A stretch of 21,972 nt of DNA, taken from positions 1 through 21,972 of the forward strand of contig JADGIZ010000161.1 in NCBI GenBank assembly GCA_027604665.1, given 5' to 3'. Both the position numbers and the translations under genes were made by a program. The stretch is from Polyrhizophydium stewartii. Its lineage: Eukaryota > Chytridiomycota > Chytridiomycetes > Rhizophydiales. The notes under the pieces were generated by a model. That model saw only the letters and a list, made by a program, of their open reading frames with translations, was not told the origin of the DNA and did not search any database. Of this stretch, positions 3,868 through 21,972 are shown one piece after another (within the stretch, counting starts at the first letter, position 1; each line of letters opens with the position of its first letter).

Positions 3868-5027
3868 CTACACCGTCTTGAGGTGCTCGGTCAAAAAGTC
3901 AAACACCTGCTGCCACGTCCGCGTCACAAGCGCGCTGTCAAAGTCGCTGCGCTTGCGGACCTCGTTCATGAACGCATGCTGCGAGCCTCTGCGAGTCAGC
4001 AACGCCGCCACCACCAGGTCCATGCTGGGCGTCATGGAGCACTCACGCCAACGCCCGGATGCACAAACACGCGCTCCTCGAGCGAGTGCAGGCCGTGCGC
4101 GTGCATGCCGCCATGCTCCTTGATTGCCTTGGCCCACCGTGCCTCGAGCGCGCGCGCCGACGCTGCGTCACTGAAGCCCTTGTGATCGTCGTTCTCGCCA
4201 AAGTGCGCCTGCACCGGCGTGCGCACGGGCAGCTGCGAAATATCAATGAGACCCGCGGGCGGGATGCCGTAAAAGGCCACGCATGCTGCACGCCCGCACG
4301 CCGTTTAGGAGCGTCAGCTTCGCTGTGTGCGCCCAGACCACGCACACACGCACACACACACATGCAGAGCGCAACACCACGCACCGTTGAGCGGCGCAGC
4401 AGATGCGACCTGCTGCATCCGCGCGCCAAGGGCAAGCGACATCGCTCCGCCCATGCAGAATCCGAGCGAGGCGACCTTGCGCCGCTCGTGCCCGGCGTCG
4501 CGCAGCACGGCCACCAGCGACGCCAGATCCTCGAGCGCCTGCTTCCAGTCGAGGCCGTTCATCAGATGGGCCGCCTCCTGAACATGGTGTGTGAGTGCAG
4601 GCACAGCGGCCTAGCGACCGTCAGCAGCCGAGACCGCGGAGCATGCCACCCCCTGGATGCCGCGCAGACCCACCGCCTCGTCGAGCGCCACCTTGCCCTT
4701 GTACAGGTCCGGCACCAGCGCAACGGCGCCCGTGCAGTTGGCGATGCGCTGCGCGTGCGCCCGCACCTGCTCGTCGACGCCCCACCACTCCTGGATGACC
4801 ACGACCGCGGGCGTTGGCGTGTCGACGGCGTCGGCAGCGTTGAGCGTGTGCCGGAGCGTCGCGTGCGGCGTGAACTTGTGGACCGCGAACGGCAGCGACT
4901 TGAGGTGCAGCCCGCGCGCGGCCGGCGTGCGCGCAAGCGCCGCAAGCGCTGCAGTCGCGGCGGCCGGCGTGCGGGTGAGCGTGCGTGCGAACATCACAGG
5001 CGTGATCGGGGGGAGAGGAGAGGCCAT
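3868..5027 (-). CDS. Dienelactone hydrolase family protein (carboxymethylenebutenolidase-like)
   Basis: An alpha/beta hydrolase of the dienelactone hydrolase family, whose members open lactone rings or hydrolyse related esters with a Cys-Asp-His triad. Exons: 5027-4674, 4577-4385, 4285-4047, 3978-3868 (TAG stop); introns of 96, 99 and 68 bp with GTGGGT, GTGCGT and GTGAGT donors and CTGAC branch motifs. The product is 298 aa. Visible family motifs: VVVIQEWWGV (oxyanion strand/loop), LVPDLYKGK, GFCMGG with nucleophile C159, VAFYG, FGENDDH with D215 as the likely acid, and HPGVGHAFMNE with catalytic H263; the last intron falls exactly between G262 and H263. The N-terminus (from M1 or M12) is Arg/Ala/Thr-rich with no acidic residues for about 60 aa, typical of a mitochondrial presequence, and makes the protein longer than the roughly 240-aa bacterial enzymes. 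The true substrate cannot be read from sequence. Confidence 0.93.
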
Positions 5028-8044: not shown

Positions 8045-11000
8045 ATGAAGCCCTCGAACCTGCGCTCCTCCGACTCGCAGCCCCGCGGGCGAACTGGCGC
8101 TCCCGAGTCAGCGATTGACCGCCTCTTTGGCTTGTTCAGCCCCACCGCCGGTGGAAAGGCTCCAAGCGACGGCGACGTCGCCGACACGCCGCCGAGAGAC
8201 CCGCCTCGTGGCGACAGGCCCATGTCGCCGACCATGGGCTTGGCCGGCGCAACAGCTCCGCGCTCGTCCAGCCTCGCCAGGAGCGACGCCAGCGTCAAGG
8301 TGGGTCCCAATTCCCCGGGCTACCGGCTGCCGGGCTTGGAGGGCTGAGCCTGTTGCTGACACCTCGACGAACTAGCAGGCGGCCCAGACCATGCAGCATG
8401 CGATCGCCAGCATTGCCGCCCTGCACCCCACCGACCGCACTGCCCTCAGGGCCGTGCTCGAGCACGTCGCCAACCACTGCACGACAGCCGCGGCCGAGCT
8501 GGACGCAGGCGCCGTCGCCATATCCTCGCCGGTGGGCTGTGCGCCTCAGTCTGCGCCTCTCGCCGAGGCAACACAGCGCTGACGTCATGGCCAACAGCAC
8601 CGCTCCGACCTGCTCAAGCTGCTTGACGCCGCCGCCACATCAGTGCGGACAAACCCCACCATGTCTGCCGAAGGCGTCGAGCGCGCGATCAGCACCATCG
8701 TCGACGACTGCTTCGATCTGCGCAGCCGGGTCATGGACGCTCGCGAGGCCGAGGTGGCCGCGGCTGCCCGCCGCTCAAGGTCGACGGCGACGGCCAAACA
8801 GCAAGTAACGGCTGAAAAGGCACTCAAGAACCTGCAAGGCGTGCTTGACACGGCAATCGACGTGAGCGCCTTGCATTCACGCCTCCATCGAGCGTTTGCT
8901 GACGCTCGCGTTGGCCGCGCAGAACCAAGCCATGGTCAAGAAGGCCTGCGATGCGTTTGTTGAGAAGATCGGCCCCGGCGCTCCCAAGGTCGACGTCGAT
9001 ACCATCAGCAACATCGCCACGCTATCGTCGTCATTTGTCGAGTTCATCGAGCTGCTCAACCGCCCGCGCGACCCTGGCACCAAGGGCGTGCAGTCCGTCA
9101 CCCGCTTCCTTGCCACAAACGGCCTCGAGATCGCCTCGACCGTCGTCAACGTCGCCAAGGCCGCAGCCGACTTTGTGCCCATTCCCGGACTCGCCACTGC
9201 CATCGGCATCATCGACAAGATCCTCAAGAACATTGGCGACAGCCAGAACGCACCAAAGATCATGCAGGCGTTCTGCGACGACCTCGGCGAGATCAAGGCG
9301 ATCATCGCGCCAATGGCCAACCAGTGGTTCTCGGCCGACGTGCGGCGCAAGTGCAGCGACCTTGTCGCGCTACTCAAGGAGGCCGACGCGGCTGTCGAGC
9401 GCGGCAAGGCCGACGCAGGCACCTGGCGCGCGCTCATGGGCGGCGCCAGCACCAAGATGGCCGCGCAGGTCGAGTCGCTGCGCAAGAAGCTCGCTAAGAT
9501 CAAGGAGCTGCTGTCGCTCGCCATGCAGGTCGACAGCGCCATGATGCTGATGCGCATGGCCAAGCAGCTCAACATCATCGACGTCAAGGCGGACAAGATG
9601 CTTGCGTGCGTGCCCCTGTGCCGCACCGTGCGTCTGCCTGTCGTGCGCGGCTGACCTGTGCACTCGCCGCTGCTGCAGGCTGCTCCGCCCGCGCACGCTG
9701 CTGCTGCGGCACGACGACTTCATGGTTGCGCCAAAGCCGCTCGACTCGTCGGGCTCGTTCCGCGTGTTCGAGGCCAAGATGGACGGCAGTCCGTTTGTGA
9801 TCAAGGAGTTCCGCGACGGCATCGAGGGCCGCGAGGACGATCTCGAGGCCGAGGCGCACCGCTGGTTCAACGCCAACCACCCGAACCTGCTGCAGCTCAC
9901 GGGCATCTGCCTCGCCAAGGACAAGCAGACGGGCCGCGGGCCGTTCATTGCAATGCCGTTTGTCGAGCACGACCTCGAGTCGTTCCTGGCCGAGAACCCT
10001 GGCATGGACGTCAAGACGCGCATCAACATCCTGCTGCGAGTCGCGCGTGGAGTCAAGTACCTGCACCAGTATGCGCCGGACGCGCCGTTGGTGCACGGCA
10101 GCCTGACCATGCGCCACATTCGCATCGGTGGGTCAATCATCAACGATGCAGCCAGCGAAGACGGGCCGTCGCTGACCCACAGGCAACGCGCGCGCAGAGA
10201 CCAAGGCGCAAATCATCAATGACAAGTACATGCTCAAGATCCGCAAGCTCAAGATCGTGCCGTCAATCGGAACCAACTCGGCCAGCAGCGCCGAGAAGAG
10301 TGCGCTTGTGTATGTCGCGCCTGAGCTGTTCAAGTCAAGCAAGTCCAAGACAGCCGAGAACAAGGCGTCCACCGTTGGCATTGGCGGATCAGCCGGCGAC
10401 TCCGCTTCCGAAGCGCAAACGTCCACCGGACTGTCGTCAAAGAACACTTCGTCTGCCGGACAACCCTCTGATAATGCGGTTTCGGCTCTGTCTTTGAATT
10501 TGCCTGGGCAAGCCAAGCCCGCGAGCTCGGCACCGATCCTTGAGAAGCCCGCGGACATCTACTCGCTCGGAGTGCTCATGAAGGCCCTGCTGCACGACAT
10601 GGAGCCAGACAAGGTCGACGCAAAGCGGATCGACAAGCCTCACGGCATCAGCGACGACCTCTGGGGCATGATCTGCACGTGCACCAACCGAGACAAAGAC
10701 GAGCGACCAGAGATCAGCGATGTCGCCTCTGCGCTGATCGCGGCAGCTGGGTCGCAGCAAGGTGAGCCGGCCCGCCTTGTTTGCCAAGCTCTGCTCACAG
10801 CAGATCTGGCTGGCTGGCGAGGCAGTCGAGGCGCATGGGTCTGACAGACAGCGCCAGCCGTGCATGCCCCGCAGGCGGCACCGGACTTTGGCGTGCTTTG
10901 CCGACTCTTCCCAGAATGGGCCGAGGAGAGCGAACTGACGGCCAGCGGGCTCGACCCGCAGGGCGAGCTGGTTTATGTCATTGACAAGGAGCTCGGCAGG

Positions 11001-14000
11001 AGCGTCAGCCTCTGGCGCCTCAGCTGGGATGCGAACCACTGCTTGACGTCGCTGTGCGTTGGGAGGCTGCCGTGTCCAGGCGTGTTGGGTGCCGGCCGTC
11101 TCCTCGAGTGCGGGTGCTGACGGACGGATGCCTGCGCTGCCTGCAGGCGACTCACTGGCTGCGGCTTCGCCGGCACCATCCCCAAGGACATTGGCCGGCT
11201 GACGCAGCTGCGCGAGCTGTGAGTCGGCTGCACTGCGTCCTGGGCCGCTGCGAGGCGGTTGCATGCGTGTGCGAGCGTCGAGTGCTAATCCGATGCGGCG
11301 TGCAGGTGGCTCGACCAGAACGAGTTCGAGGGCCGCGTGCCGCCACAGCTCAGCAAGCTGACCAAGCTGACGTCGCTGTGAGTCGGCGGGGCGGCGACAC
11401 CTTGCTGCCTGGCACGCAGACTGACCGCCTCCCGCCTCCAGTCGGCTGTCGCAAAACAAGCTCTCGGGAGTCCTTCCGCCCTCGTTGCGGGCATTGTCGG
11501 AGCTGACTGAGCTGTGCGCCGCGGTCGCTCTGATCTTGTGGGCTGTGCGTCCAACGCATGATTGCTGACCACGGGCTGCGTGCCGACGCCAACAGCGACA
11601 TATCTCAGAACGAGATCACGGGGCTGTCTGGCGTGCTCCGTGGCATGCCCAAGCTGCGCTCGCTGTGAGTGACATGGCTGTGAGTGGGCTGCAAGCCTGA
11701 TCGAGAAGCCCTGCTGATCGATGCGCAGTGACATATCGATGAACAAGTTCCGCGAGATCCCCGCCGCGGTCTTCACGCTCGAGGCTCTCGAGTACCTGTG
11801 AGTCTCAGCCACTTCCTTTGGCATGCCGATGTGGGCCGTGTGACGCAGCTGCTGATCTTGGTGGCACGCGGGATGCGCACTCCAGCCACGCCGAGTCGTG
11901 GGTCAATGACGACGACGATGACGAGGAGTTCCGCATCTCCGAGATCCCGCCCGAGATCGGCAGGCTCAAGAACCTCACCAAGCTGTGCGTTTCCCGCCTT
12001 GATACGCCACACCGAGCAGCTTCTGGATGCGGCAGCTGACTCAGGATTGTCGACGCACTCAGCGACCTGACCGACAACACAATCAAGCATGTCCCCAAGG
12101 AGATCGGCCAGCTCACGGGACTTCGTTTCCTGTGAGTGAGCTGCGCGGCTCAAACTCGTTTGCAGAAAATGATTTTGCGGGATGCTGACTGCTTGCACAG
12201 ATCACTGAGCGGCTGTGGCGTCGAGGAGCTGCCAGAGGAGATCGGCAATCTGATGCTGCTCGATGAGATGTGCGCCGCACACTGAATCACACCGGTAGGT
12301 GCAAGCCTCCGCACACTGACAGCCGCCTCGCACAGTTTGCTTGATGGAAACAATCTCAGCAAGCTGCCTGAGAGCTTTGCCAACCTGACCAATGTTGAGA
12401 GGCTGTGAGTGCCTGACATTGGATCCACGGGCCTTGTAACCTCGACCACACAGCGCAACTGACATACACGGTGGCGCTTGCCGTCACCAAGTCTGCTGAA
12501 CGGCAACTCGTTTGCTGCGCTGCCGGCTTGCATCACCGAGCTTAGCCAGCTGCGCGAGCTGTGAGTCACCGCACTGCCGATCGCATCGAGGCCATTGACA
12601 GCGTTGCTGACATGCCGAGCAGCCAGGCGGACGAATGCGACATCGAGTCGCTTCCCGAGTCAATGGGTGATCTGGTCGATCTTGCCGTGCTGTGCGTGTG
12701 CCGCGCCGCTTTCCGGAGAAATCAGCGCTTGCCGAGTGCTGACCGAGTTTGTGTGGCAGGTCGCTCGCAAGCAACAAGCTCGACAGTCTTCCAGACAGCA
12801 TGCGCAAGCTCACTGAACTGCGCGATCTGTGAGCACGGCACTTACTTGCAGCCCACGTTGCACAGCCCGGCTCACATTTGGTGTCGCCAGAAACATCAAC
12901 GACTGCGCGTTCAGCGAGCTTCCTGACTGGATCGGCGAGCTGTGCAACCTCGAGAGTCTGTAAGGCAGCCTGTGAGGACAGCCGTCGATCCGCATCTGAC
13001 TGTTTTGTGCTGATGCTCGCCCAAAACGACAGCGATGTCGGCGAGAACCAGACCGAGCACCTGCCGGACTCGCTTTGCGACCTGACGCAGCTGCGCAGGC
13101 TGTGAGTCGGCCAAGCATCGACGGCGGGCCTTGCGTGTATGCTGCCTCGCTGACCTGCACTTGCGGAACATGCGGCGTGCAGCTGCCTTGAGGACAACTC
13201 CATTGAGAGCCTGCCCGACAACATTGGCCGCCTCAGCAGGCTGACGACGCTGTGAGTCTGCACTGCAGGTTTTGACAACGCTGCTTGCCCCGATGCTGAC
13301 TTTGAGTGTCTTGCAGCTCTGCCCAGAACAACGTGCTTTCGGAGCTGCCGCAATCGATCGGCGACCTGTCGAGCCTGGCTGTCCTGTATGTCGCGGCATG
13401 TGCCTTCGGCATCGCAGGTTGCGCGAACACAGATGGCTCACGATTGCATTGCAGCAACCTCGAAGACAACAGCCTCGAGTCCCTGCCAGACACCATTGGG
13501 CAGCTGCAGTCTCTCGAGAATCTGTGAGTGGGCAATGCTTGTCATGCTCACAGCGGGTTCTCGCGGCGTCGGCTGACATGGTTGCATGGACAGGTCGCTG
13601 AGCGACAACGAGCTCGAACAGCTGCCAGAGTCTTTCGCCAGGCTCGGATCTCTGCGCGAGCTGTGAGTGGTCATCGGGACTCGGATCTCGCCCGCATCCG
13701 CCTGCTGATGCGGCGATCTTGTGAATCGGGATGGCGTTGGCCCAGAAACCTGTCGTCGAACCGACTGAGCGAGTTCCCGCAGCAGATCGCGATGCTCACG
13801 AGGCTGGATGTGCTGTGAGTGGCTCCGTCAATCAGAATCACACCGCCTCGAGACTGCTGACTGCGTCGGACGACAGCAATCTCAGCTCGAACGAAATCGA
13901 GAGCATCCCGGACGAGATTGGGCGGCTCTCGCAGCTGACAATCCTGTGAGTCGGAGCACATCTCTCTGTGTGTCTGCACGCCTGCTGCTGACATGAGAGC

Positions 14001-17000
14001 CACTGGCGGCCGCAGCGACATGAGCAGCAACAGCTTGGTTGAGCTGGGCGACGGCTTGTTCAAGCTGCAGAGTCTGGTTGAGCTGTGGGTTCAGCAATGC
14101 GGTGGTGCTTGTTGCGTCGTGTGCTGAAGTCTGTCGGGCCATGTTACGCAGGGACCTGTCCTCCAATGAGATCGAAGAGATCCCTGAAGCGATCGGCCAG
14201 CTTGCCAAGCTCAACTCGCTGTGGGTCGCAACCGCGATGAAACGATGCAATTGCTGATGGTGGTGTGCTGACAGGTTGTCGATCTAGCAACTTGAACTGC
14301 AATGAGATCAGCGAACTCCCTGAGTCGATTGGCAAGCTCAAGCACCTTGACACGCTGCAAGTTTTTATCCTTGAGGAGATAATCAATTCTCCGCTGCTGA
14401 CAATTTATCAAGCCTGTTGTCTGAGAACGCAGTCGAAACTCTGCCTGGGTCACTCAGTTCTTTAGCAAATCTCACCAACTTGTGAGCCTGCCTCTCGGGT
14501 GGGACAATGATGTGGTCTGCGATGCGCTGACAAGGTTTCCCAATTTAGAAACCTCGGCGACAACGAATTTACGGAGCTGCCCGAGTGCATCTCTGGTCTT
14601 ACGGAACTGACTGAGCTGTGAGCTGCAATGCTTCGATCAGGCATAGTTCTGGCCATTCACTTCCAGCTTGCTGATCTCAGCGCTGCCACAACAGTTACGC
14701 ATTCGACAACTTGTTTGAGAGCGTGCCCGACTGGATCGGCAACCTCACGCAGCTCAAGACCTTGTGGGTCATGTGCTTGGCAGCAACAATGCGGCGATCT
14801 TCTGCTGACTGCTTGATCAGTGAGCTGCAGAGATGCAAAATCAGCCACCTTCCCGAGAGCATCGGCAAGCTGGAGCAGTTGGAGTTTTTGTGAGCCCCTT
14901 GATTCCTCAATGTCGACATGCCCGGCTTCATCTGATCGATGCTGTGCAGCGACATCTCGGACAACCAGATCGAGTCGCTGCCTGACTGCTTCAGCAACAT
15001 GAGCAAGCTCAAAACCTTGTGCGTTGCAGCCACACGATTCGCCGATGTCTGAGCGATGTGCTTGTGTGTCGTGCTGCTGACTCGTGCTTGCCGGCAGCCT
15101 GATGATCAGGATGGCCGTCAAGGAGCTGCCGCCATCGATCACCAAGCTCACCAGCCTGACCAAGTTGTGAGTGCAGCCGCTGCCGCTGGAACATGTGGCC
15201 TCTGCGAGCTGCGGCTGACCAAGGCGGTGGCAGCTGGTTTGCTGCCAACCAGATCTCGTCGCTGCCTGACAACTTTGGCGATCTCACGAGTCTCGAGTAC
15301 ATGTGAGCCATGCCTGCGAGCCGTCTTGCAGCTGCCAGCTATCGTCGTTCTGACAGAGATCCCGTTGCAGCGAAATGTACAAGAATCCGATCGAGTTGCT
15401 GCCCGACAGCATGCAGAATCTTGCCAATCTCCAACGACTGTGAGCTCTCACCGGTCGCACTGACGCAGATGTGCGTTGAGCCGCGCGGCTGACGCCTTTT
15501 GCCAGCAACATGAAAGACTGCAAGATCTCGACAATTCCCGAGTGGTTCGGCAACCTCACCAACCTCACTCTGTTGTGAGTCTTGACATATCGAATGTGTC
15601 GCATTCGATTGCCTATTGACGGTGCCGCTGGTGCAGATACATTTCAAACAACCCAGTGGAACATCTGCCGGACTCGCTGCGCGCACTGACCAAGCTGACC
15701 AAGCTGTGAGTGCAGCAACGGCAGAAGGGCACGTATATGTGGAGCATACTTACATGGCGGCTTCCGGATGCACAGATCGATATCCGGTTGTCAGGTGACA
15801 GAGATGCCCGAGTGCATCTCGAGCTTCACGCAGTTGACCGAGCTGTGAGCTGCAACGCTTCGATCAGGCAGAGCTCTGCCCCTTCGCCTCCGGCGCGCTG
15901 ACTTCAGCCTTTCCAATTTGTCGCAACAGTTACGCATTCGACAACTTGTTTGAGACTGTGCCCGACTGGATCGGCAACCTCACGCAGCTCAAGATCATGT
16001 GAGTCGCATGTCGTGCAATGACCATGTTGCGATCATTCGCTGATCACTTGGTCACAGGCAGCTGCAGAGATGCGAAATCAGCCACCTTCCCGAGAGCATC
16101 GGCAAGCTGGAGCAGCTCGAATACCTGTGAGTCCCTTGATTCGTCAATGTCGACATGCCCGACTTCATCTGACCGATGCTGTGCAGCGACATCTCGGACA
16201 ACGAGATCGAGTCGCTGCCTGACTGCTTCAGCAACATGAGCAAGCTCAAAACCTTGTGCGTTGCAGCCACACGGCTCGCCTCTGTCTGAGCGATGTGCTT
16301 GTGTGTCGTGCTGCTGACTTTCTTTCTCTGCAAGCTACATGATCAGGATGGCCGTCAAGGAGCTGCCGCCGTCGATCACCAAGCTCACCAGCCTGACCAA
16401 GTTGTGAGTGCAGCCGCAGTTGCTGATGCATCTGGCCTCTCCGAGCCGCGGCTGACCAAGGCGGTGGCAGCTGGTTTGCTGCCAACGAGATCTCGTCGCT
16501 GCCTGACAACTTTGGCGATCTCACGAGTCTCGAGTACATGTGAGCCACGCCTGCAGGCTGTCTTGCAACTGCCAGCTGCCGTCGCTCTAACAGAGATGCC
16601 GTTGCAGCGACATTTACGAGAACCCGATCGAGTCGCTGCCCGACAGCATGCAGAACCTCACGAATCTTTGGCAGCTGTGAGTTTGCGTCGGCCGTGCTGA
16701 CCCAAATGTGTGTCGGGCAATGCGTGCGGCTGACGCCTTTTGCCAGCGACGTGAAAGACTGCAAGATCTCAGTGATCCCTGAGTGGCTCAGCAGTCTCAC
16801 CAACCTCACCGAGCTGTGGGTCTTGCAGCCCGCATTTTATTCGCATTTGATTGCTTGTTGACAGTGCCGCTTGTGCAGATACATTTCAAACAACCCAGTG
16901 GAACATCTGCCGGACTCGCTGCGCGCACTGACCAAGCTGAACAAGCTGTGAGTGCAGCAACGGCAGAAGGGCACGTGTGTCCGGAGCATACTTACATGGC

Positions 17001-19119
17001 GGCTTCCGGATGTACAGGTCGATATCCGGTTGTCAGATGACAGAGATGCCCGAGTGCATCTCGAGCTTCACGCAGTTGACCGAGCTGTGAGCTGCAGCGC
17101 TTGAATCAGGCAGAGCTCTGCCCCTTCGCCTCCGGCGCGCTGACTTCAGCCTTTCCAATTTGCTGCAACAGTTACGCATTCGACAACTTGTTTGAGAGCG
17201 TGCCCGACTGGATCGGCAACCTCACGCAGCTCAAGACCTTGTGGGTCATGTGCTTGGCAGCAACAATGCGGCGATCTTCTGCTGACTGCTTGATCAGTGA
17301 GCTGCAGAGATGCAAAATCAGCCACCTTCCCGAGAGCATCGGCAAGCTGGAGCAGCTTGAGGAGTTGTGAGTCCCTTGATTCGTCAATGTCGACATGCCC
17401 GGCTTCATCTGACCGATGCTGTGCAGCGACATCTCGGACAACCAGATCGAGTCGCTGCCTGACTGCTTCAGCAACATGAGCAAGCTCAAAACCTTGTGCG
17501 TTGCAGCCACACGATTCGCCGATGTCTGAGCGATGTGCTTGTGTGTCGTGCTGCTGACTTGTGCTTGCCGGCAGCCTGATGATCAGGATGGCCGTCAAGG
17601 AGCTGCCGCCGTCGATCACCAAGCTCACCAGCCTGACCAAGTTGTGAGTGCAGCCGCAGTTGCTGATGCATCTGGCCTCTCCGAGCCGCGGCTGACCAAG
17701 GCGGTGGCAGCTGGTTTGCTGCCAACGAGATCTCGTCGCTGCCTGACAACTTTGGCGATCTCACGAGTCTCGAGTACATGTGAGCCACGCCTGCAGGCTG
17801 TCTTGCAGCTGCCAGCTGCCGTCGCTCTAACAGAGATGCCGTTGCAGCGACATTTACGAGAACCCGATCGAGTCGCTGCCCGACAGCATGCAGAACCTCA
17901 CGAATCTTTGGCAGCTGTGAGTTTGCGTTGGTATCACTGACCCAAATGTGTGTCGGACAATGCGTGCGGCTGACGCCTTTTGCCAGCGACGTGAAAGACT
18001 GCAAGATCTCAGTGATCCCTGAGTGGCTCGGCAGTCTCACCAACCTCACCGAGCTGTGGGTCTTGCAGCCCGCATTTTATTCGCATTTGATTGCCTGTTG
18101 ACGGTGCCGCTGGTGCAGATACATTTCAAACAACCCAGTGGAACATCTGCCGGACTCGCTGCGCGCACTGACCAAGCTGACCAAGCTGTGAGTGCAGCAA
18201 CGGCAGAAGGGCACGTGTGTCCGGAGCATACTTACATGGCGGCTTCCGGATGTACAGGTCGATATCCGGTTGTCAGATGACAGAGATGCCCGAGTGCATC
18301 TCGAGCTTCACGCAGTTGACCGAGCTGTGAGCTGCAACGCTTGAATCAGGCAGAGCTCTGCCCTTTCGCCTCCAGCTTGCTGACTTCAGCCTTTCCAATT
18401 TGCTGCAACAGTTACGCATTCGACAACTTGTTTGAGAGCGTGCCCGACTGGATCGGCAACCTCGCGCAGCTCAAGATCATGTGAGTCTCATGTCGTGCAA
18501 TGACCATGTTGCGATCATTTGCTGACCGCTTTGCAACAGGCAGCTGTATGAAAACAAGATCAAGCACCTTCCCGAGAGCATCGGCAAGCTGGAGCAGCTT
18601 GAGGAGTTGTGAGTCCCTCGAATTGCCAGCGCCAGCATGCCCGGCTTCATCTGACCGATGCTGTGCAGCGACATCTCGGATAACCCAATCGAGTCACTGC
18701 CCGAGAGCATGCAGAACCTCACGAACCTTTGTGTGCTGTGAGTTTGTGCCGGCAGTGCTGACCCAAATTTGTGTCAAGCCATGCGTGCGGCTGACACCCG
18801 TTGTCAGTGATATGAAGAACTGCAAGATCTCGACGATCCCCGAGTGGTTCGGCAACTTCACGAGCCTCACCGAGCTGTGGGTCTTGCAGCTCACATGCTT
18901 GTGGCAGCAGATTGCGTATTGACGGTGTCGCTGGTGCAGGGACGTTTCGAACAACCTTGTGGAACGGCTGCCGGACTCGCTGCGCGCACTGACCAAGCTG
19001 ACCAAGCTGTGAGTGCAACAAGGGCAGAGGGCGCCTGTGTGCGCGGGTCGTGCTGACCTTGACTCGGAACGAGCAGAGACACGAGCGGCTGTCCGATGCG
19101 CGACTCGTCCTCTGAGTGA
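8045..19119 (+). CDS. MLKL-like helical bundle / pseudokinase / 57-LRR protein, 65 exons
   Basis: My model joins 65 exons into 6579 nt (2192 aa, TGA at 19117) with no internal stop. Non-LRR exons: 8045-8299, 8379-8531, 8598-8861, 8923-9605, 9679-10127, 10198-10761, 10858-11053; exons 8-64 carry one LRR each; exon 65 is 19077-19119. Order in the protein: residues 1-85 Ser/Pro-rich and disordered; 86-224 helical; 225-452 a HeLo/MLKL N-terminal-like bundle; 453-790 a kinase fold without catalytic residues; 790-855 a linker/LRR cap; 855-2178 LRRs; a 14-residue tail (DTSGCPMRDSSSE). No signal peptide or clear TM anchor, so probably cytosolic. The layout suggests a sensor (LRR) fused to a cell-death-type effector (bundle plus pseudokinase); this is inference from domain logic. 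The exon 6/7 junction is the least certain: acceptor 10857 keeps the frame, acceptor 10874 does not. The start is the first ATG of the frame after a stop-free upstream stretch. Confidence 0.85.
8923..9605 (+). other. Helical region resembling the HeLo/MLKL N-terminal four-helix bundle (exon 4)
   Basis: Residues 225-452. The segment is almost wholly predicted helix, with amphipathic stretches such as SSSFVEFIELLNRP and VESLRKKLAKIKELLSLAMQ. It contains VAKAAADFVPIPGLATAIG followed by IIDKILKNI at about 302-328: an Ala/Gly-rich helix with a Val-Pro-x-Pro-Gly turn, then a helix and polar residues. I recall this pattern from fungal proteins assigned to the MLKL N-terminal/HeLo-like group. In that family the bundle is the membrane-active or signalling part. 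Assignment is by pattern only and needs a profile search; a generic adaptor helical domain is the alternative. Confidence 0.55.
9679..10761 (+). other. Pseudokinase domain (exons 5-6)
   Basis: Residues 453-790. Kinase landmarks in order: SSGSFRVFEA (degenerate glycine loop), FVIKEF with the ATP-site Lys (K494) kept, HPNLLQLTGIC, IAMPFVEHDLESFL (hinge), ILLRVARGVKYLHQ (helix E), then LVHGSLTMRHIRI where HRD should be (H591-G592-S593, no catalytic Asp; the metal-binding Asn is His598), then KIRKLKIVPS where DFG should be (K618-L619-K620). LVYVAPELF, PADIYSLGVL (D721) and DERPEISDVASAL restore the normal C-lobe. A low-complexity insert of about 70 residues (647-718, Ser/Thr/Ala-rich) separates APE from DIYSLG. 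Both catalytic aspartates are lost, so phosphotransfer is not expected; a nucleotide-binding or conformational switch is possible. Confidence 0.85.
11147..14617 (+). other. LRR array part 1: exons 8-32, one repeat per exon, diverged
   Basis: Exons: 11147-11218, 11306-11377, 11442-11513, 11596-11664, 11729-11797, 11886-11984, 12063-12131, 12201-12269, 12336-12404, 12492-12560, 12623-12691, 12760-12828, 12891-12959, 13033-13101, 13183-13251, 13317-13385, 13455-13523, 13594-13662, 13746-13814, 13877-13945, 14016-14084, 14152-14220, 14288-14356, 14413-14481, 14549-14617. The first three are 72 nt (24 residues) with plant-type motifs such as GTIPKDIG; later ones are 69 nt (23 residues) of Shoc2-like type, e.g. 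LSSNEIESIPDEIGRLSQL. Exon 13 is 99 nt and carries an Asp/Glu-rich insert. Every intron is phase 2, splitting the last Leu codon of each repeat. Sequences differ enough that this part is the older half of the array. Confidence 0.88.
14357..14412 (+). other. GC-AG intron within the LRR array
   Basis: Intron 30 (56 bp, the shortest in the array) starts GCAAGT rather than GT, has a GCTGAC branch motif and ends in AAG. The flanking exons are 69 nt and the frame requires this junction, so it is best read as a GC-AG intron; GCAAGT is the usual form of such donors. Confidence 0.75.
14695..15929 (+). repeat. LRR cassette copy 1 (exons 33-41 plus introns)
   Basis: First of a nine-exon tandem unit, about 1.24 kb. 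Exons: 14695-14763, 14821-14889, 14950-15018, 15098-15166, 15234-15302, 15371-15439, 15506-15574, 15637-15705, 15776-15844. Characteristic repeats in order begin YAFDNLFESVPDW, ELQRCKISHLPES, DISDNQIESLPDC, LMIRMAVKELPPS, WFAANQISSLPDN, EMYKNPIELLPDS, NMKDCKISTIPEW, YISNNPVEHLPDS, SISGCQVTEMPEC. Exon 32 (14549-14617, TELPECISGL) resembles the ninth exon, so the duplicated block may really begin one exon earlier. Confidence 0.9.
15930..17171 (+). repeat. LRR cassette copy 2 (exons 42-50 plus introns)
   Basis: Exons: 15930-15998, 16058-16126, 16187-16255, 16335-16403, 16471-16539, 16608-16676, 16747-16815, 16879-16947, 17018-17086. Same order of repeats as copy 1. Differences include NEIES for NQIES, FYMIRMAV for LLMIRMAV, and a different intron between the first two exons (15999-16057) that matches copy 4 but not copies 1 and 3. 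From exon 46 on it is almost identical to copy 3, introns included. Confidence 0.9.
17172..18411 (+). repeat. LRR cassette copy 3 (exons 51-59 plus introns), mosaic
   Basis: Exons: 17172-17240, 17298-17366, 17427-17495, 17575-17643, 17711-17779, 17848-17916, 17987-18055, 18119-18187, 18258-18326. The 5' part follows copy 1 (intron 17241-17297 appears identical to 14764-14820; NQIES; LLMIRMAV). The 3' part follows copy 2 (introns and exons from 17644 on). The switch lies inside exon 54, between about 17576 and 17611. Confidence 0.9.
18412..19008 (+). repeat. LRR cassette copy 4, shortened to five exons (60-64)
   Basis: Exons: 18412-18480, 18540-18608, 18669-18737, 18808-18876, 18940-19008. 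They match cassette positions 1, 2, a 3/6 fusion, 7 and 8. Exon 62 begins like position 3 (DISDN) with the intron of position 3 upstream, and ends like position 6 (PIESLPESMQNLTNL) with the intron of position 7 downstream. Three repeats' worth of sequence is missing without a frame change. The short terminal exon 65 follows where position 9 would be. Confidence 0.85.
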
Positions 19120-19484: not shown

Positions 19485-21018
19485 ATGGACGCCGACCCCG
19501 GCATCGCCGCCGCCCCCGGCGTCGCGGCTGTGCGGCTTGAACCCGACGAGGCGCTGCCCGCCATCCCGGCGGCGCCTCGACGCCCCAACGGCTTCCGGCC
19601 CGGCGCAACCAACGAGTGGGACCGCATGCCGGCCGAGATCCAGCGCATGATCCTCAAGGCCACAAGCCCCTTCACCCAGTTCATCAACAGGCTGCTGCTC
19701 AAGGCCGAGCTGCTCGCCCTTTCCGACAAGCAGCGCGAGCAGGTCTGGCAGGACGCCAGCGACGCCGACTGGCAGGGCGATGTGGATGTGCTGCCGCCCG
19801 TCGACACAAGCAGGTCGCTCCGCCTTCAGTCCTGCACATTCCTCGAGCGCTGCAAAGAGTACACTTACTACCACGCCGCCATCCGCAGCGGCTGGACGGA
19901 CATGCTCGGCTATGAGGAGCCCGAAGAGATTGCGTTTTGCAGCCGCCAGCGAGGGCAATGTCGAGATCCTGTGCGATCTGATTGACGTGCGCAAGGCCGT
20001 CAAGCCGAGCAGCGACTATGCTGAAGAGGCAGCAAAGCAAGGTCGCCTTGAAGTTGTTCGGGTGCTTCACGAGCGCATGCCGGACGACGCCTGCCCCCTC
20101 AGAGTGGGCGATAATGCCTGCGAGAGCGGGAACCTCGATCTCGTTGTCTGGCTCAAGCAGCACCGGCCCGAGTGCATTGGCCCGAGTGCGCTTGTTGGTG
20201 CGGCCCGTGAAAAGCACATGCACATTGCACGCTGGCTTGTCGAGCACACAACGGACCTTGAGTGCGACTGGGACGCATTCAAGCTTGCGGCCAGCACCGA
20301 CAACCTCGAGATGCTCGAGCTGCTCGATCAGCGGTTCCCAAGCGAGCTCGACAGCGTTGGGTCTCGTAAGCTCGTGGCGTCTGACGTGAATGTCCTCGGG
20401 TGGCTTGACAAGCGCGGCGCCGTTGGATATGAAAGTTTGGCCTCTCACATTGCAAGCACGGGCAAGATCGAGTCGCTCGAGTGTGCCATGGTGCGCTTCG
20501 GCATCGAGCTGCGAGAGCAAGACTTGTCGCCTGCCATTCAGCATTGCCACAATCACGTCATCAATTGGGCGTGCAGGCGCGGCGTGCCGCTCACGACCGA
20601 CTCGGCATATTCTCTGGCCTTGTATGATCGCACGGACTTGATGAGCTGGCTGATTGCGCGCGACCGCAGTGCGATCCCGGCTCTTGTCCAGGAGACCTTG
20701 AAGCACGGCAGCGCATCGCTGGTCGAGTGGTGGTGCGTGCGTCACGGCGCTGTGTTTGGCCAAGCGGACCTCGAGACGGCCATCCTCAAGAGGAATGGAG
20801 GAGTGGTCAAGGCTCTGCTCGACCTGAAAGACGTCGAGTGGGATCTTGAAGCCGCGAGGGACATTGCGCAAGGACTGCGCTTGGAAGGCTCGTATTACTT
20901 TCTGCAGCGGTTTTCCCATTTCGCAAAGTACCAGCTGGATGATATTGCTCGAGTACGCAGCGTGATTGACGCGGCGATCGCCCGTCGGGCTGCACAGGCC
21001 GCTGCACCTGCGGAGTAA
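19485..21018 (+). CDS. F-box-like/ankyrin repeat protein with an apparent +1 frameshift
   Basis: Two overlapping frames together look like one protein. Frame A starts at ATG 19485 (MDADPGIAAAPG) and carries NEWDRMPAEIQRMILKAT, an F-box-like helix, then HAAIRSGWTDMLGYEEPEEIAF. Frame B continues AAASEGNVEILCDLIDVRKA and runs through about ten degenerate ankyrin repeats (e.g. AAKQGRLEVVRVLHER, ACESGNLDLVVWLKQ, AASTDNLEMLELLDQ) to TAA at 21018. The switch falls at the T4 run 19935-19938; one T fewer gives IAFAAASEGN and a 510-aa protein. I found no GT-AG intron that fixes the frame. So it is a sequencing or assembly indel, a recent pseudogenisation, or frameshifting. Proteins of this type are probably substrate adaptors for ubiquitin ligases (inference). 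It is convergent with the TLC gene, with 150 bp between the stops. Confidence 0.8.
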
Positions 21019-21168: not shown

Positions 21169-21972
21169 TCAGATGTGGTGGATTGCCGCAGCCGTCTTGG
21201 CAACCGAAGCCACTGCTGCTGCCGCCGCTGCCACGTCGGAAGGACGGAAGCGCCACCATGCGCGGATGACCAGCACGGACCAGTACACATTCAAGACCGA
21301 GAACGCGAGCGAGTTGAGTACCAGGAGCAGCGAGACGATGCGGGGCATGTGTGCCGCATCGTCAACGAGGAGGGCCGCGATGCGGGCGTTGGTGAGCTGG
21401 GCGTGCTGCCGCTTCTCGTGTGCAGCGGGAGATGAGGTTGCAGCGGCGGGGAGAGATGAGGCGGCAGTGGACGACGAAGAGCCGGAGGTCCGATCCGGGC
21501 CGGCCAGGCGGGTCAGGGCTGCGCGGGAGATGCCGGTCGAGTCTGCCGAGGCAACGCCGGGCGATTCTGGCATCGCATCGACAAGCATCTTGGCCCCGTC
21601 GCGCACACGCCGGGCATAGTGGACGCCAAGCTCGGCCCAGAATCGCGCGGCGACGATGGCAGGAACGGGCAGCCTGAAGATGAGGAACGCAACCGCACGC
21701 ACGGCAAGGGCGGCCTGGAACCAGCACGGGTGCGACTTGTCTGCGCCTGCGCGCTGCATGAGCCAGACGGCGCTCGATGCCGGGACCGTCGCCTCCGGAA
21801 TGATGAACGAGACGGGAAGCACGGCGGAGATGCGGTACACACGCTCGAGGGCCGTGCCGACGACGCCGAGGCCGTGGTGGATCCATGCGGACCAATGCTC
21901 GCGGGCCTGCAGGGCCATGACGTACATGCCATAGAACGCAAACGCCGTGAAGTCAGCCAAGGCAACGTCGGC
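21169..21972 (-). CDS. TLC (TRAM-LAG1-CLN8) domain membrane protein, C-terminal part
   Basis: The frame enters from the right edge (reading ADVALADFTAFAFYG...) and ends with TGA at 21169; 267 residues are visible and the start lies outside the window. Hydrophobic segments: about 5-21, 30-60 (WSAWIHHGLGVVGTAL, with the His-His pair typical of the TLC core), PVSFIIPEATVPASSAVWLM (the family's Glu-x-Thr/Ser-x-Pro-like segment), AFLIFRLPVPAIVAARFWAEL, and SLLLVLNSLAFSVLNVYWSVLVIR, which matches the last TLC helix. A loop of about 90 residues rich in Ser, Ala and Thr sits before the last helix, longer than usual; it may be real or hide an intron. TLC proteins include ceramide synthases and lipid-sensing or trafficking proteins of ER and plasma membrane; the subgroup looks nearer TMEM56/TLCD than ceramide synthase, with low confidence. 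Confidence 0.8.
   Translation of the reverse strand, partial: ADVALADFTAFAFYGMYVMALQAREHWSAWIHHGLGVVGTALERVYRISAVLPVSFIIPEATVPASSAVWLMQRAGADKSHPCWFQAALAVRAVAFLIFRLPVPAIVAARFWAELGVHYARRVRDGAKMLVDAMPESPGVASADSTGISRAALTRLAGPDRTSGSSSSTAASSLPAAATSSPAAHEKRQHAQLTNARIAALLVDDAAHMPRIVSLLLVLNSLAFSVLNVYWSVLVIRAWWRFRPSDVAAAAAAVASVAKTAAAIHHI

Follow-up and report, generated by a model that had tools for sequence, protein, structure and literature searches.

A chytrid gene family joining a helical bundle, a pseudokinase and leucine-rich repeats in one polypeptide, with a possible role as intracellular receptors

Animal MLKL, which lacks a built-in sensor and depends on RIPK3 for its activation, is among the described proteins closest to the subject of this analysis, a giant gene of the chytrid Polyrhizophydium stewartii. 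The gene is located on contig C161 (GenBank JADGIZ010000161.1) of an assembly of 12.86 Mb in 690 contigs; the window, i.e., the whole stretch of DNA analysed, comprises 21,972 nucleotides, and the organism is assigned to Rhizophydiales in the NCBI taxonomy. Like MLKL, the encoded protein has a helical bundle directly before a pseudokinase with the nucleotide-site lysine. It differs from MLKL in that it runs on into 57 leucine-rich repeats (LRRs), an ending after the pseudokinase being seen only in the paralogue P0022 (447 amino acids, near the size of human MLKL), and in that the similarity of its bundle to MLKL stays below the Pfam cut-off. SHOC2, of the Ras-group LRR proteins, differs from it as well, since it is not known to have a bundle or a kinase domain. 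The observed architecture, namely a bundle, a kinase fold without catalytic aspartates and 57 LRRs in one frame, was confirmed. With less than even confidence, we propose that the gene represents a family of chytrid LRR receptors, apparently soluble and located inside the cell, in which a pseudokinase would relay the release of a helical-bundle effector, leading to cell death.

Fungal NOD-like receptors (NLRs) with HeLo, HELL, Goodbye or BaMLKL domains are described in PMC12881547, PMC9815663 and PMC10197012 as likewise all-in-one proteins with an N-terminal bundle effector. According to the same papers, the HeLo/HELL-type receptors differ from the chytrid protein in having ankyrin (ANK), tetratricopeptide (TPR) or WD40 repeats together with NACHT or NB-ARC. 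Neither NB-ARC nor NACHT was found in Pfam scans of residues 86–862 of the window protein or of its relatives P0003, P0007, P0009, P0012 and P0016. According to a 2025 review, LRRs have not been found in fungal NLRs, and some HELL domains are fused to a kinase or pseudokinase (PMC12881547). Plant and animal NLRs that do possess LRRs (coiled-coil (CC)/RPW8-NB-LRR) share with the window protein the layout of an N-terminal helical effector, a central switch and C-terminal LRRs, but its switch is a pseudokinase rather than a nucleotide-binding ATPase. Its C-terminal array of 57 LRRs may act as a sensor.

Soanes and Talbot, for whom an LRR receptor must have a transmembrane helix, reported that such receptors are missing almost entirely from fungi; they also listed genes with LRRs and a kinase but no transmembrane region, of which four are from Batrachochytrium dendrobatidis and five, which are bacterial-like, from filamentous ascomycetes (PMC2939053). 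Since the B. dendrobatidis genes are listed there, an intracellular LRR-kinase in a chytrid has precedent, whereas the bundle and the order do not. The window protein has in common with these genes, and with the plant and oomycete LRR receptor kinases, the presence of LRRs plus a kinase and the LxGxIP-like LRRs with which its array begins. It is distinguished from LRR receptor kinases by a kinase that precedes the LRRs and is dead, by the extra bundle and by the lack of a transmembrane-like stretch, the highest 19-residue mean in a simple hydropathy analysis being 1.37, inside the bundle. The 17 relatives listed include no protein from B. dendrobatidis or from an ascomycete. A survey of early-diverging fungi reports MLKL homologues from Glomeromycotina only (PMC8778642), and the available portions of PMC10197012, PMC12258605 and PMC3268121 contain nothing on a bundle-pseudokinase-LRR architecture. 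No description of this order was found in the literature searched, that is, in the accessible portions of open-licence PMC articles, one of the queries being too broad to weigh. The parts are of known kinds; their combination appears to be new.

The gene was modelled with a dynamic programme using donor, acceptor and branch-point-like sites, to which GC donors and an LRR term were added in the 65-exon run. The model leads from an ATG at 8045 to a stop at 19119 on the forward strand and encodes 2,200 amino acids in 65 exons with no internal stop; an earlier run with an exon-length bonus only, and without GC donors, gave 61 exons over an unchanged span. In the 65-exon model, exons 8–64 are 57 consecutive phase-2 exons, each encoding one LRR. 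The reverse-strand and shuffle controls matter because the LRR bonus of the programme favours LRR-like exons: the real LRR region yielded 53 exons of the LRR pattern, while none was obtained in four dinucleotide shuffles or in the top-scoring reverse-strand model, even though the latter included 12 exons of 66–72 nt. The exon count, the 57 one-LRR exons, the continuous frame and the coordinates given in an initial annotation, made by a model from the DNA letters and their open reading frames, were thereby reproduced. The public protein HK105_001868 (P0001) was compared with the first 1,420 residues of the model, and 1,310 of the 1,312 aligned residues are identical. It omits exons 10 and 28, places the borders of exons 2, 6, 7 and 14 differently, and ends by read-through into the intron after exon 29, near model residue 1,382. 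P0001 stops past exon 29, and therefore exons 30–64, i.e., 35 of the 57 LRR exons (window 14221–19119), are missing from the annotated protein. For exon 6, an alignment with P0001, P0002 and P0004 makes a start at 10198 more probable than one at 10183. One GC-AG intron (14357..14412, +) follows exon 30 within the array; every other intron of the model has a GT donor.

The same architecture was found elsewhere in P. stewartii and in a second genus. A search of the genome with exon 4 gave 13 matching stretches on ten contigs, that of the window included. By translated comparison, eight further loci (C57, C409, C135, C253, C660, C512, C218 and C114) have matches to the kinase N-lobe, the junction and the LRRs; the six that were modelled (all but C512 and C218) contain 24, 23, 18, 5, 27 and 10 LRR exons in automatic, unrefined models. 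A protein search identified at least 17 relatives, eight from P. stewartii and nine from Entophlyctis helioformis (Chytridiales). Kinase and LRR Pfam domains occur together in 15 of these 17, P0010 and P0015 being shorter or partial models. The order of bundle, pseudokinase and LRRs in one polypeptide, as claimed in the initial annotation, hence recurs in the paralogues and in E. helioformis. Because the search scored only the 7,995 candidates sharing exact words with the query, little weight can be given to the absence of relatives outside the two genera. When a shorter query was used in a later profile search, five proteins were listed, from the same two genera, and a search of plasmid DNA gave no match.

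The kinase part is encoded by exon 5 (9679..10127, +), which reaches from the N-lobe to the catalytic loop according to Pfam and the alignment, and by exon 6 (10183..10761, +, or from 10198), which according to the splice model, the alignment and P0001 encodes the C-lobe with a Ser-rich insert (residues ~603–795). It is matched by Pfam PK_Tyr_Ser-Thr with an E value of 2.4e-14. A kinase fold lacking the HRD and DFG aspartates had been described at the outset, and this description holds: HGS stands in place of HRD and there is no visible DFG, although the beta3 lysine has been retained. In the family alignment, the HRD aspartate is absent from all 17 rows covering the catalytic loop, the beta3 lysine is present in 18 of 18 rows, and no DFG is discernible by eye. 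All eight LRR-type paralogous loci of the P. stewartii genome lack the HRD aspartate. The protein thus displays the MLKL pattern of a pseudokinase placed after the bundle, with the beta3 lysine kept and the HRD and DFG aspartates lost. The kinase N-lobe and the bundle are the best-conserved parts across the two genera and are conserved to a like degree.

Upstream of the kinase, exon 1 (8045..8299, +) encodes a low-complexity, probably disordered N-terminus (residues 1–85) in the splice model, with which P0001 agrees. Exons 2–3 (8376..8861, +; residues 86–225 of the splice model) encode a less conserved helical region that shows 35–57% identity over parts at five paralogous loci and is helical in the predicted model of P0003. 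Exon 4 (8923..9605, +; residues 226–452) encodes, as judged from the splice model and the paralogues, the conserved helical-bundle domain. The Ala/Gly-rich VPIPG stretch pointed out in the initial annotation is present at residues ~305–323; no other 19 residues of the protein are as hydrophobic (mean Kyte-Doolittle 1.37), and the family alignment reveals a near-invariant F-x-P-x-P motif within the most hydrophobic stretch of the bundle. In a predicted model of low confidence, VPIPG forms a break between two helices, and four long helices (residues 315–328, 335–358, 363–388 and 402–440) match four-helix bundles. Pfam MLKL_N matches residues 357–440 of the window protein with 22.9 bits (cut-off 27, E 6.5e-5). 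The same family was matched in 5 of 11 bundle sequences with a best E of 3.3e-5 and was the commonest there, the next-best family reaching 0.003; in a reversed control made with six of the eleven sequences MLKL_N did not appear, and the best chance family had an E of 0.0074. HeLo-type Pfam models gave no match at E up to 1 with the window protein or the 11 bundle members, a distant relation being possible. A PDB search with exon 4 alone gave no informative match. In NCBIfam, exon 4 had no match, and elsewhere LRR and kinase look-alikes were found far below the cut-offs.

The LRR-less paralogue is encoded on contig C474 by a three-exon gene (1361–2864 of the C474 stretch examined), whose 447 residues proceed from the bundle to the kinase to the stop; it is identical over its length to the public protein HK105_203849 (P0022). 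Its bundle is linked to the window family by hhalign with an E of 3e-18, and its kinase keeps HGD and has NFN at the expected DFG position. It is possible that P0022 is an MLKL-like partner of the LRR family. Among its 104 matches, none other than P0022 itself covers more than 64% of the length, and because of this coverage the relatives apparently match the kinase only. On contig C623, helical bundles alternate with kinase units having HGD and, in some cases, DFG. One C623 bundle exceeds the Pfam MLKL_N cut-off with 27.3 bits. This match had led us to expect kinship between the C623 bundles and that of the window, which was rejected, since the hhalign E was 0.014 (0.028 without C474) against 0.0065 for the reversed control.

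Exon 7 (10852..11053, +; residues 796–862) encodes a conserved pre-LRR junction, probably the LRR N-cap, with 42–54% identity at eight paralogous loci. In the array that follows, 53 LRRs have 23 residues, three have 24 and one has 33. The three 24-residue, LxGxIP-type-like repeats are encoded by exons 8–10 (11147..11513, +) of the splice model, and the other 54 by the one-LRR exons 11–64 (11596..19008, +), which are backed by the controls; exon 65 (19077..19119, +) provides the C-terminal end and the stop. Exon 13 (11886–11984) encodes an LRR ten residues longer than the others with the acidic run DDDDDEE. The 23-residue LPxxI repeats are likely to form a SHOC2-like array, as a SHOC2-type LRR fold is seen in the predicted model of the paralogue P0003. 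Within the array, 14695–18411 is composed of three tandem copies of a unit of ~1.24 kb, each with nine LRR exons and their introns: copy A (14695..15929, +), copy B (15930..17171, +) and copy C (17172..18411, +), after which a shorter, more diverged partial copy extends to 19008. The exons of copy B are 91.5% identical to those of A and 97.1% to those of C. Over the three pairs, exon identity is 91.5%, 93.7% and 97.1% and intron identity 87.2%, 90.4% and 94.3%, so that the introns diverged more than the exons. These values show a recent tandem growth of the array.

In the proposed receptor, the LRR superhelix would bind a ligand, whether non-self, damage or modified self, and the pseudokinase with its kept nucleotide-site lysine would serve as a conformational latch. 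A change of the latch would free or cluster the N-terminal bundle, which would then act on membranes like the MLKL, HeLo and CC/RPW8 bundles and bring about regulated cell death. Such a protein would be an all-in-one sensor-executioner with a pseudokinase in place of the nucleotide-binding ATPase of NLRs. We infer this sequence of ligand binding, latch, bundle release, membrane action and cell death, together with a role as an immune or self-recognition (allorecognition) receptor, and the proposal is supported by the single frame in 65 exons, far above the controls, and by the independent public model for the first part.

Several results weigh against this reading. Wherever bits were printed, MLKL_N never reaches the curated 27-bit cut-off in this family; 6 of the 11 bundle members have no MLKL_N match, and among full-length proteins it was found in P0003 (6.1e-4) and P0012 (0.013) and not in P0007, P0009 and P0016. 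The window bundle is also weakly matched by a second family, EAD5 (E 0.0041). In a PDB search with a profile of the 11 bundle members, MLKL was missing from the matches with E up to 10. Structure prediction, proposed earlier as a check, failed to lend support: the fold was of low confidence (predicted local distance difference test score (pLDDT) of 51), Foldseek placed MLKL 34th and 36th, with E values exceeding 1, and none of its 463 matches reached an E of 0.001, and the best 50 matches in VIA-align were mostly generic helical bundles, without MLKL. P0022 retains the HxD aspartate and is not matched by MLKL_N with E up to 1. With hhalign, the window bundle could not be joined to the C623 bundle family, the reversed control scoring better. 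Positive selection on the LRRs was rejected: the ratios of nonsynonymous to synonymous substitution rates (dN/dS) of the three LRR copy pairs are 0.40, 0.33 and 1.03, the last resting on ~18 differences, so that strong diversifying selection is not indicated. That the bundle is of the MLKL kind, as the initial annotation had put forward, is only partly supported by sequence: the profile search recovered the kinase and, below the cut-off in 5 of 11 sequences, MLKL_N, but neither the HeLo-type models nor the PDB profile search and the low-confidence fold confirmed it.

Nearly as likely as a receptor-executioner is an LRR-pseudokinase scaffold without membrane attack, in which the LRRs sense or dock a partner, true kinases of the same cell are recruited or activated by the pseudokinase, and the helical region only oligomerises. 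The weak MLKL link of the bundle in the PDB profile and Foldseek searches fits such a scaffold, as does the predicted LRR fold of the paralogue, which resembles that of SHOC2, itself a scaffold. The conservation of the kinase N-lobe equals that of the bundle, the genome contains 157 kinase-domain matches, and on C623 HGD-bearing, in part DFG-bearing, units alternate with bundles. However, the bundle and N-lobe are the best-conserved parts and the near-invariant F-x-P-x-P is more than a generic coiled coil needs, while the stand-alone paralogue P0022 shares both the size and the order of MLKL.

A developmental or housekeeping LRR protein, serving for example rhizomycelial growth or adhesion and not immunity, seems improbable. 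It would agree with the purifying selection seen in the bundle (dN/dS of 0.34 vs. C57 and 0.37 vs. C253, in two comparisons) and in two of the three LRR copy pairs (0.40 and 0.33), but recognition is a better fit to the variable LRR number (5–27 exons in the six automatic paralogue models and 57 here) and to relatives that, among the matches listed, come from two genera only. That two adjacent genes or a pseudogene were merged into an artefactual model is very hard to credit. Although the model rests on genomic sequence, and the public model stops after exon 29 and makes other splice choices at exons 2, 6, 7 and 14, the 57 repeats lie in uniform phase-2 exons with no stop, the order recurs in public proteins of the paralogues and of another genus, and the reverse-strand and shuffle controls are clean. 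Two genes read as one and a simple repeat artefact were each considered and rejected; a bacterial gene was rejected because the genes are intron-rich.

In the flanks of the gene, a frame at 19780–21015 (+) encodes ankyrin repeats (Ank_4, 5.9e-10), one at 4614–5027 (-) belongs to the dienelactone hydrolase family (1.9e-10), and one at 21172–21960 (-) has a TLC-domain match below the cut-off (1.3e-4).

A further-reaching claim, that these proteins form an LRR-based immune or allorecognition class whose single chain links an LRR sensor to an MLKL-type membrane executioner through a pseudokinase acting as the switch instead of the NLR ATPase, with the LRR-less paralogue as a possible partner, must be considered rather unlikely. 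If true, it would represent a sensor-executioner architecture unknown in other kingdoms and an exception to fungi lacking LRR-based receptors. A conserved family of bundle-pseudokinase-LRR proteins shared by two chytrid genera would revise the picture of LRR-poor fungi and connect LRR sensing with a pseudokinase switch. With such a family, it could be tested directly whether early-diverging fungi joined necroptosis-like execution to a sensor.
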